From: Chromatiales bacterium
GTDB taxonomy: Bacteria > Pseudomonadota > Gammaproteobacteria > Chromatiales > Chromatiaceae
Reading direction: 5' to 3'
Assembly: GCA_024712425.1 (NCBI GenBank)
Contig: JAKRWE010000010.1
Span: forward strand, 1-36,854
DNA length: 36,854 nt
Of the stretch, positions 9,108 through 36,854 are shown one piece after another (position 1 is the stretch's first letter; every line of letters starts with the position of its first letter). The notes beneath the pieces were generated by a model. It saw nothing but the letters and a program-made list of their open reading frames with translations. It was not told the origin of the DNA and ran no database searches. The position numbers and the translations under genes are program-made.

Positions 9108-10181
9108 TTATTCCATCTTGTCGCCAACCGAGTTCAGGTAGGCCTTGTCGGAGATGTTGGTCCAGGCCCGCACCTTCCGCAGGTAGACCTTTTGCGAATC
9201 GATGATCTCCTTCGCCAGCGGATCCTTGGCGGCGCGTTGCGCCAGCAGATCCTCGTTGGCCTTGTACATCGCGTTCAGCACCTCTTTGGGGAAGGTGCGG
9301 ATCTTGATGTTCGGGTACTCGGTCTTGATCTTTTCCCAGTTGACCGCGCTCTCGTGATAGGACTGGGCGTACATATCGTAGGAAACGGCCTTCATCGCGG
9401 TCACGAGAATGCTCTGCAGGTCCTTGGGCAGCTTGTCGAACTTCTTCTTGTTGACCAGAAACTGCAGTTCGGTGGCGGGCTCATGCCATCCGGTGTAATA
9501 GTAGGGAGCGATCTTGTGGAAGCCCATGCGCAGGTCCAGCGAGGGGCCTACCCATTCCAGGGCGTCGATGGTGTTGCGCTCCAGCGCGGTGTACAGCTCG
9601 CCCGCCGGGATGTTGGTCGGCTTGGCGCCCAGCTTGGCCAGCACCTCGCCGGCGAAGCCTGGTATCCGCATCTTCAGGCCCTTGAGGTCGTCCAGCGACT
9701 TGATCTCCTTGCGGAACCAGCCACCCATCTGGTTGCCGGTGTTGCCGCCGGGGAATGACAGCACGCCGTACTTGTCATAGACCTTCTTCATCAGGTCCAT
9801 GCCGCCGCCGTAGTAGAACCAGGCGTATTGCTCGGGCGCGGCCATGCCGAACGGCATGGTGGTGAAATACAGGGTGTTCGGATCCTTGCCCTTCCAGTAA
9901 TAGGAAGCGGAGTGACCCATGTCGTACTGGCCGGCACGGACCATGTCGAAGATGCCCAGCGGCGCCTTGTGCTTGTTCTTGGAGTCGATCTTGATCCGGA
10001 GACGGCCGTCGGACATCTCCTTGACCAGTTTGGCAAGGTTTTTGGTGGTGTCACCGAAGATCGGGAAGTTGGGTGGCCAGGTCTCGGCCAGACGCAGGGT
10101 GTAGGTCTTGGCAGCGAACGCGGTCGAGGCAGATGCCCCGAGCACCAGTGCCAGCGATGCACCAATCAGTTTCTTGAACAT
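9108..10181 (-). CDS. dctP: TRAP transporter substrate-binding protein (DctP/TakP-like)
   Basis: 357 aa; signal peptide MFKKLIGASLALVLGASASTAFAA; LAETWPPNFPIFGDTTKNLAKLVKEMSDGRLRIKI, KMRIPGFAGEVLAKLGAKPTNIPAGELYTALERNTIDALEWVGP; SD AGGAGGAACC. Confidence 0.93.
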   Translation of the reverse strand: MFKKLIGASLALVLGASASTAFAAKTYTLRLAETWPPNFPIFGDTTKNLAKLVKEMSDGRLRIKIDSKNKHKAPLGIFDMVRAGQYDMGHSASYYWKGKDPNTLYFTTMPFGMAAPEQYAWFYYGGGMDLMKKVYDKYGVLSFPGGNTGNQMGGWFRKEIKSLDDLKGLKMRIPGFAGEVLAKLGAKPTNIPAGELYTALERNTIDALEWVGPSLDLRMGFHKIAPYYYTGWHEPATELQFLVNKKKFDKLPKDLQSILVTAMKAVSYDMYAQSYHESAVNWEKIKTEYPNIKIRTFPKEVLNAMYKANEDLLAQRAAKDPLAKEIIDSQKVYLRKVRAWTNISDKAYLNSVGDKME

Positions 10182-10311
10182 GGTTCCTCCTGAAATGGGG
10201 GGATTGTTATTGAGAGCGTATCGGGCGAGCCGATCAGATGAATGTAGCGCACCCGGCGGGCGCGTACAATGGGGTTTTGGGTTGGCGACAGGGTAACGTC
10301 ATCCAACCCGT

Positions 10312-10466
10312 GCGGGGCGGGTCGCCTGCTCGGAAAAACGCCGTAAATACATCCCTGGCCGCTTACAGCTTCCTGCCTCCCGCGGCACTCGCACATCCCT
10401 GTGCATCGTAGGCTCTACGACGGCATCCCTGCCGTCGAAGTTTTCCAAGCAGGCGACCCGCCCCAC
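10312..10466. repeat. Intergenic inverted-repeat element with internal CATCCCTG hairpins
   Basis: Perfect 17-bp arms GGGGCGGGTCGCCTGCT (10314-10330) / AGCAGGCGACCCGCCCC (10448-10464) with near-matching GGAAAA extension; internal hairpins GCACA-TCCC-TGTGC (10391-10404), TCGTAG-GCT-CTACGA (10406-10420), CGACGGCA-TCCC-TGCCGTCG (10418-10437). Confidence 0.85.
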
Positions 10467-10567
10467 TTTTCAACGACTTACGAGTTTAGATGACGAGGTC
10501 CTGGGGCTGGAGACAGACATTCTGTCGGCCTGCCCGTCCCGCGGTGTTTCGGGTCATAATGAAGGCA

Positions 10568-10598
10568 CAAAAAAAGCCGGAGCCACCAGGACCTCGGC
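10568..10598 (-). terminator. Probable Rho-independent terminator after the PCuAC gene
   Basis: Minus strand GCCGAGGTCCTGGTGGCTCCGGCTTTTTTTG: GCCG(A)G/CT(C)CGGC stem with one bulge then a 7-T run, ~30 nt past the stop at 10630. Confidence 0.75.
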
Positions 10599-10629
10599 AA
10601 ACAACCCGCATGGGGTTGGGGAACGTTCT

Positions 10630-11166
10630 TTACCTGGCGCCGCCGCACTTGCCGGCGCCGCATTTTCCTTTCATGGCACCACATTTGCCGCCCATGGATG
10701 CGCCCTTGTTCATCATCATGCCCATGCCGACCTGACGGACCCTGAGATCGACCGGTACGGTACTGCCGTCGTCCAGGGTCAGGTCGATATGGATGGCCTC
10801 GCCCGGCTTGATCTGGTGTTTCAGGTCGATCAGCATCACGTGATAAGAGCCCGGCTTGAGCTCGACACTGCCGTGGGCCGGCACATCGATGGCATCGACC
10901 CGGCGCATGCGCATGACACCGTTGTCGTGAATGTGGTTGTGCAGCTCGGTTACCTCCGAGACATCAGATTTCGCCACCACCACCTTGCGGTCCTGATCCG
11001 AATCGTTACGGATCAGCATGAAGGCCCCACTGTTTCGTGCAGTGGGCGGTACAGCCCGTGCATAGGCATTTTCCACTGTCACGCCATTGGTGGCAGCTGC
11101 GGCAACCCGTGCCGCATTGATCGAGGTGGCCAGAAAGGCCGCAGTCAGAAGATGAGCCAGCTTCAT
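10630..11166 (-). CDS. Periplasmic PCuAC-type copper chaperone with Met/Cys-rich GKCG C-terminal tail
   Basis: 178 aa; signal peptide; AYARAVPPTARNSGAFMLIRN, TELHNHIHDNGVMRMRRVDAIDVPAHGSVELKPGSYHVMLIDLK (PCuAC Cu site); tail MGMMMNKGASMGGKCGAMKGKCGAGKCGGAR. Confidence 0.92.
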   Translation of the reverse strand: MKLAHLLTAAFLATSINAARVAAAATNGVTVENAYARAVPPTARNSGAFMLIRNDSDQDRKVVVAKSDVSEVTELHNHIHDNGVMRMRRVDAIDVPAHGSVELKPGSYHVMLIDLKHQIKPGEAIHIDLTLDDGSTVPVDLRVRQVGMGMMMNKGASMGGKCGAMKGKCGAGKCGGAR

Positions 11167-22330: not shown

Positions 22331-22508
22331 CTGTCAACCCAATTCTAAAATGTCCCCTTTTCTCCCAAGCTGAAATGTCCCCTTGGTGAGTCCGGGGTCA
22401 TGAGGGGACGAGGGGGCGCCTCATCTCCAGGGATGGTCCGGTGCAGGCCTGTGGGCCCTGCGGTTGAGTTGGATGGTCTTGGCCTTCTCGACGGTGGCGT
22501 GGATGCTT
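22331..22508. repeat. Direct repeat copy A (ISNCY-type element end)
   Basis: 178 nt CTGTCAACCCAATTCTAAAATGTCCCC...GGTGGCGTGGATGCTT, one visible mismatch to 23129-23306. Confidence 0.9.
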
Positions 22509-23128: not shown

Positions 23129-23306
23129 CTGTCAACCCAATTCTAAAATGTCCCCTTTTCTCCCAAGCTGAAATGTCCCCTTGGTGAGTCCGGGGTCATG
23201 AGGGGACGAGGGGGCGCCTCATCTCCAGGGATGGTCCGGTGCAGGCCTGTGGGTCCTGCGGTTGAGTTGGATGGTCTTGGCCTTCTCGACGGTGGCGTGG
23301 ATGCTT
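23129..23306. repeat. Direct repeat copy B (ISNCY-type element end)
   Basis: 178 nt matching 22331-22508 with one visible mismatch (GGGTCCTG vs GGGCCCTG). Confidence 0.9.
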
Positions 23307-36641: not shown

Positions 36642-36676
36642 ATGATTCCGGCAGTGTATCGGCCCGGCCAGGACTT

Positions 36677-36729
36677 CGTCATCTAAATTCGTAACCTTCG
36701 GAAAAGTGGGGCGGGCAGCCCGCCCCACT
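36677..36729 (+). repeat. Second copy of the dispersed repeat flank, ending in a perfect palindrome
   Basis: CGTCATCTAAATTCGTAACCTTCGGAAAAGTGGGGCGGG matches the reverse complement of 10457-10495 at 32/39 positions; then AGTGGGGCGGGC-A-GCCCGCCCCACT (36705-36729). Confidence 0.75.
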
Positions 36730-36854
36730 CGAGTTAGCAGGCTGTTGAAAACCGTGCCGATTCTGCCCTGTTTTCACCAGACGGAGGGGATCGACGGCCA
36801 TTGTTGCGAGTTGAGTTGACCCAAGAGGCCCAATGCACTGGAAAATGCTGACCC

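Follow-up and report, generated by a model that had tools for sequence, protein, structure and literature searches.

A MITE upstream of dctP in a Chromatiales bacterium carries a conserved pair of GGA-loop hairpins, a candidate binding module for CsrA

The inverted-repeat element that lies between the terminator of the PCuAC gene and dctP in a 36,854-nt stretch of a Chromatiales genome (this whole stretch is called the window below) is a MITE, a non-autonomous transposable element. Its core is a module of two GGA-loop hairpins topping a long base-paired stalk, which rides in separate MITE frames, has a covarying structure with invariant GGA loops, and is under structural selection on the GGA strand. 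We consider it probable, with some reserve, that this module binds one CsrA/RsmA dimer and that the dispersed copies act as CsrA sites. Transcription of the copies, CsrA binding and an effect on the host are what we infer from these features.

The original prediction described an element of about 155 bp at 10312-10466. This palindrome is real but was mis-bounded. A BLAST search with the element as query in its own genome, a 3.26 Mb draft of 426 contigs with its closest DctP relatives in Sedimenticola/Chromatiales, found about 40 copies of two sizes, and in their alignment conservation reaches well past the palindrome to CAGGG-NNN-CGTCATCTAA terminal repeats. The true unit is the 215 bp from 10289 to 10503, of which the palindrome is only the middle portion; it has 18-bp terminal repeats and is flanked by a degenerate 10-bp target duplication matching at 8 of 10 positions (Table 1). 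The inverted arms are present and longer than described, 24 nt (96% complementary) where 17 bp had been given. The three motifs occur where they had been claimed (10437-10418, 10404-10391 and 10357-10350), but the last, the third CAGGGATG, forms no hairpin, since it is unpaired in the predicted fold. The sequence CATCCCTG is found 11 times in the window against 2.4 expected (0/100 shuffles), three of these within 82 bp, and the minus-strand RNA of the element has a predicted folding energy of -96.4 kcal/mol (z = -7.6 versus shuffles).

Table 1. Coordinates of the MITE, its parts and neighbouring features in the window.
Feature	Position	Strand	Basis
dctP promoter -10 (TACATT), outside the element	10241..10246	-	same conserved promoter as the -35
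dctP promoter -35 (TTGTAC), outside the element	10264..10269	-	TTGNNN-17-TACATT conserved in L084, L086, L087 and L095
Target-site duplication, left copy (gggttggcga)	10279..10288		8 of 10 positions as in 10504-10513; other copies have exact or near-exact 10-bp duplications
Whole 215-bp MITE, long form of frame A	10289..10503	- (strand of the GGA hairpins)	BLAST copies in own genome; paired terminal repeats
Terminal inverted repeat, left, CAGGGTAACGTCATCCAA	10289..10306	+	copy alignment and repeat pairing
Stalk arm pairing with 10441-10464	10314..10337		24 nt, 96% complementary
Third CAGGGATG; hairpin-2 loop of short copies, unpaired in the window (long) copy	10350..10357	-	predicted fold and copy comparison
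Long-form hairpin GCCGC...GCGGC with AGGA in its upper part, weak in the window copy	10358..10386	-	copy alignment and predicted fold
Middle GGA hairpin GCACA-GGGA-TGTGC, long form only	10391..10404	-	missing from 164-bp short form
Hairpin 1, CGACGGCA-GGGA-TGCCGTCG (C-ANGGAN-G)	10418..10437	-	covariation over 52 relatives; GGA retention in two copy sets
Stalk arm pairing with 10314-10337	10441..10464		24 nt, 96% complementary
Terminal inverted repeat, right, CAGGACCTCGTCATCTAA	10486..10503	-	copy alignment and repeat pairing
Target-site duplication, right copy (gggctggaga)	10504..10513		match to left copy
Second MITE remnant, core-less and of the same frame, close to the end of the contig	36669..36735	+	copy search and terminal-repeat pairing

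Pairing of terminal repeats (CAGGGNNNCGTCATCTAA) gave 28 complete elements in the own genome. The long form measures 213-215 bp and the short form, without the middle hairpins, 162-166 bp, and two elements of 59 and 78 bp are core-less. Exact 10-bp target duplications are present at several copies: GTCTCCCGCG, GTCGATTGAT, CCCTGTCAGG and CTAAACACCC at copies C21, C22, C23 and C55. The terminal repeats, the paired copies and the 10-bp duplications identify the element, which is short, non-coding and multicopy with a target-site duplication of fixed length, as a MITE. No autonomous transposase with matching ends was found among the 26 DDE_Tnp_1 loci or at an ISAs1 relic of the 426-contig draft, where a partner may be collapsed or lost; ISAs1 or another DDE_Tnp_1 as the mobiliser of frame A was set aside for these loci, as none of them bears the terminal repeats.

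A covariance model of the short core found about 76 copies of the apical module in the own genome, in at least three different MITE frames. The second frame has TTCTACTTTGTC ends and 4-bp NTAN duplications (CTAA, GTAA, TTAA, CTAT, TTAT) and holds the same core type in long and short forms; the third (GGAAGGCAGG...) also holds it. The 10-bp and 4-bp duplications indicate different transposition systems for the frames.

Some further observations concern mobile DNA in the window. The remnant at 36669-36735 is apparently broken by the end of another element (TAG followed by GCAGGCTGTTGAAAACC). The right end of the MITE (10491-10504) and the PCuAC terminator region (10586-10599) share a 14-nt inverted match with one mismatch, which may be coincidence or a target preference. 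The segments 22331-22508 and 23129-23306 form a direct repeat of 178 nt, 99% identical and with AAAAGGGGACATTTTAGAATTGG inverted ends nearby, resembling another mobile element.

The structure of the module was assessed in an alignment of 52 cores, with at most three per genome. Standard pairs occupy 97.4% of the cells, and 12 of the 14 pairs show changes on both sides. The covariation score is 0.413, compared with 0.101 for shuffled alignments (0/500) and at most 0.091 when the partners are slid, and RNAalifold, unprompted, returned the identical fold. All four Watson-Crick types occur at several positions of hairpin 1, while hairpin 2 is found as UACA/UGUA, UCCA/UGGA, CCCA/UGGG and UAUA/UAUA. 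The stalk arms are wholly different between copies, even within one genome, and still pair over about 33 bp. Throughout this variation the loops stay the same: 59 distinct hairpin-1 stems carry steady ANGGAN loops across 48 genomes. When hairpin-1 loops were located solely by their distance from hairpin 2, GGA was retained in 121 of 124, and in a second copy set, for which GGA was not required for finding, in 44 of 45. Copies with stems and without GGA, which had been named as the outcome contrary to the original prediction, are thus not the pattern, the GGA loops being the most constant part of the structure. The loop-closing C-G pair is nearly invariant as well (120/124), both loops reading C-ANGGAN-G. 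The offset between the loops is 23 nt in 131 of 165 copies, which leaves 20 nt between the GGAs.

The selected strand was determined from isolated non-Watson-Crick pairs within clean stalk helices, with G.U and A.C weighted equally in the alignment. On the GGA strand there were 65 G.U versus 27 A.C pairs in the first set (p 9e-5) and 21 versus 4 when a second set, nearly all of it from other genomes, was counted (p 9e-4), or 86 versus 31 pooled (p=4e-7). This excess of G.U over A.C places the GGA strand under structural selection, and that strand is the minus strand favoured by the original prediction. It is no weaker where a copy is antisense to both neighbouring genes (24 versus 7), so read-through from these genes does not account for it. 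The fold of the GGA strand is also the more stable one in 110 of 131 copies, partly because of the loop bonuses of the energy model. An ssDNA hairpin of the GGA strand would likewise favour G.U over A.C. The excess fits RNA, and less simply ssDNA, from the GGA strand of the element or its source copies.

The loops resemble published CsrA sites, as had been predicted from the window. The module's loop consensus equals the Rsm-binding motif CANGGANG (PMC6849547), and hairpin 2 in its common version, UACARGGAUGU, agrees with the SELEX consensus RUACARGGAUGU (PMC7652899) at all but the first base. A CsrA dimer bridges sites 10-63 nt apart, best above 18 nt (PMC7652899), and the 20-nt GGA spacing is within this range and above the 18-nt optimum. 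The sequence thus presents what is expected of a CsrA/RsmA target, namely CANGGANG in hairpin loops and at least two sites 10-63 nt apart. The original prediction presupposed a csrA/rsmA gene, and five PF02599 matches above cut-off were found in the own genome. Among 40 carrier genomes examined, csrA was detected in 35; the five others (G003, G008, G012, G032 and G209) are drafts of 69-98% completeness. Two of the csrA-like genes of the own genome (L042/L043, G000:C143:354-512 and 2428-2586) lie on one short contig, separated by about 2 kb, in addition to three other csrA homologues, and are possibly paralogues on a repeated or mobile segment. An isolated CCGGTCAGGGATGACCGG hairpin is close to one csrA homologue (L040, about position 1044, G000:C31).

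Because both loop consensus and dimer spacing match published CsrA/RsmE sites, the reading we favour is a mobile module that binds CsrA. At the end of its long stalk the non-autonomous MITE carries a conserved RNA module, a pair of ANGGAN hairpins separated by 20 nt, and in the long form there are further GGA hairpins. Transcribed in the GGA direction, the module would most likely be bound by one CsrA/RsmA dimer across both hairpins. Dispersed copies could then serve as CsrA-binding sites, each a local clamp or protector on host RNAs, and dozens of them summed could form a mobile sponge for CsrA. A literature search, with subscription journals mostly outside its reach, returned no paper linking CsrA to MITEs.

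Two more specific proposals for the locus were not supported. A dedicated sRNA gene of the CsrB/RsmY type had been suggested; a consensus scan of 10150-10720 found neither a sigma-70-like promoter nor a terminator owned by the element. The other was that the element acts in cis as a leader through which CsrA controls the dctP TRAP operon; we now regard this as highly improbable. The GGA strand is indeed the dctP sense strand, and 20 bp separate the -35 box from the end of the element upstream. However, a TTGNNN-17-TACATT promoter, read by eye in relatives, stands between element and gene and leaves the element outside the mRNA. Relatives lack the element, including a Sedimenticola with the same gene order and a 92% identical DctP, and dozens of unrelated loci carry it. 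The promoter and the relative without the element indicate a lineage-specific insertion upstream of the dctP transcript.

The main rival to the CsrA reading is unlikely, if by no means negligible. It holds that the module is an ssDNA (or RNA) hairpin read by the mobilising or copying machinery, so that the GGA loops are a transposition signal and not a CsrA site. The strand-specific G.U excess is compatible with ssDNA of the GGA strand, and the core is common to many elements. In tandem contexts the copies do not favour either orientation to the genes (35 sense, 52 antisense; gene calls from a simple codon model, approximate), as such a signal would allow, and a gene-orientation bias was dropped as evidence of an RNA role. 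The duplications made by the Yersinia YPAL elements, which vary from 3 to 26 bp beside a dyad symmetry (PMC2229807), point the same way. The two frames examined, however, have terminal repeats and fixed duplications of 10 or 4 bp as left by DDE-type transposases, so the core is not needed at the ends. The own genome has 11 Y1_Tnp matches, and the 8 loci inspected lack the core hairpin within about 1.5 kb. The free N together with the fixed closing C-G pair is, moreover, the pattern of CsrA-type loops.

A neutral MITE family, in which DNA template switching (quasi-palindrome correction) maintains the pairing of the arms and the loops seem conserved because the copies are recent, would account for the patchy distribution, the burst-like copy numbers and the hypervariable, perfectly paired arms. 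We find it rather improbable, as the loops remain constant across genomes in which stems and arms diverge, and as palindrome correction at the DNA level predicts equal G.U and A.C and leaves the strand-specific excess unexplained. Still less credible is that the hairpins are mainly RNA stabilisers or insulators at 3' ends, with GGGA merely a stable GNRA-like loop. Convergent sites do outnumber divergent ones (38 versus 19), and YPAL is reportedly co-transcribed with upstream genes and may affect the stability of their RNA (PMC2229807). The first loop base is nevertheless G, U, A or C, and what is conserved is GGA with the preceding A, so the loop is not GNRA and this account of the GGGA loops is ruled out.

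The CsrA-like module is widespread, being found in more than 50 gammaproteobacterial genomes. With the short-core covariance model, 21 of 55 genomes were positive in a patchy pattern, with 0 to at least 100 copies per genome; two relatives gave 55 and at least 100 matches. In a phylum-wide sample the same model detected 32 of 397 genomes, all of the same class. A query with the Ysr224 consensus retrieved plasmid copies from Pantoea, Klebsiella, Citrobacter, Enterobacter and E. coli, while no match to the frame-A arm or to a guessed core turned up in plasmids, and phage records gave short fragments only, at most 40% of the query. One intergenic stretch (L440, G551:C1:92500-97000) holds six head-to-tail copies of GGA elements about 227 bp apart, like a multi-site sponge array.

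Among known systems, the sponge RNAs CsrB, RsmY and RsmZ likewise present repeated GGA hairpins on one strand, but they are single dedicated sRNA genes, whereas the window element is transposable and no promoter was seen for it. REP/BIME sequences (GTAG or CGTC repeats) are also small dispersed palindromes. In REPs the GTAG or CGTC tag is unpaired (PMC3733652), whereas the CGTC that precedes hairpin 1 is in part base-paired and shows covariation; a REP/RAYT origin was rejected, there being no unpaired tag and no core hairpin near the inspected Y1_Tnp loci. No Rfam family matched in the window at its gathering threshold, and miRNA-family matches to the element, stem-only and below gathering scores, were disregarded. 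TwoAYGGAY (RF01731), proposed as CsrA-binding from motif matches (PMC4333381), shares the two GGA-loop hairpins, a poorly conserved outer stem and multiple copies in gammaproteobacteria. Its linker and hairpin-2 sequences differ, and the window copy, at 16.6 bits, misses its gathering score of 43; at one locus (L299, G287) TwoAYGGAY and core-family (Ysr224) matches overlap.

Ysr224 (RF02770), the model of a Yersinia sRNA, is one of the bacterial sRNA families annotated most often (PMC9029176). Short copies reach 40-44 bits (E about 1e-8) in the own genome and in relatives, and the model matches the core in 40 of 370 genomes, but on the complementary (UCC) strand, so that the family appears to be modelled opposite to the structurally selected strand. 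The gathering score of 70 bits was reached in 0 of the 370 genomes, the best match being 44.2 bits in a relative. YPAL/RU-2 of Yersinia is multicopy, mobile and intergenic, and its published 168-nt RU-2 sequence (PMC2759123, Table 1b) includes this core, CGTCCGCGCCAAGGATGGCGCGGCTCGAGCCTACATGGATGTATTTACGGCG, when read on the GGA strand. YPAL has internal repeats only (PMC2229807), whereas the repeats of the window element are terminal and 18 bp long, its duplications measure 10 bp, and its long form contains additional GGA hairpins. Judged by sequence, the core is homologous and the vehicle different. The literature search found no CsrA link for YPAL.

We tentatively propose, as a possibility short of being probable, that several unrelated MITE families took up a portable RNA module binding a CsrA dimer and that it spread through Gammaproteobacteria, where transposition would place as many as about 100 CsrA sites in a genome and tune the CsrA network by copy number. 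If true, this would provide a directly testable case of bacterial transposable elements distributing sites for a global RNA-binding regulator. It would also correct the strand of Ysr224 and unite YPAL/RU-2, Ysr224 (on its other strand) and TwoAYGGAY, so far catalogued separately, in one superfamily of mobile carriers of a CsrA-site pair.
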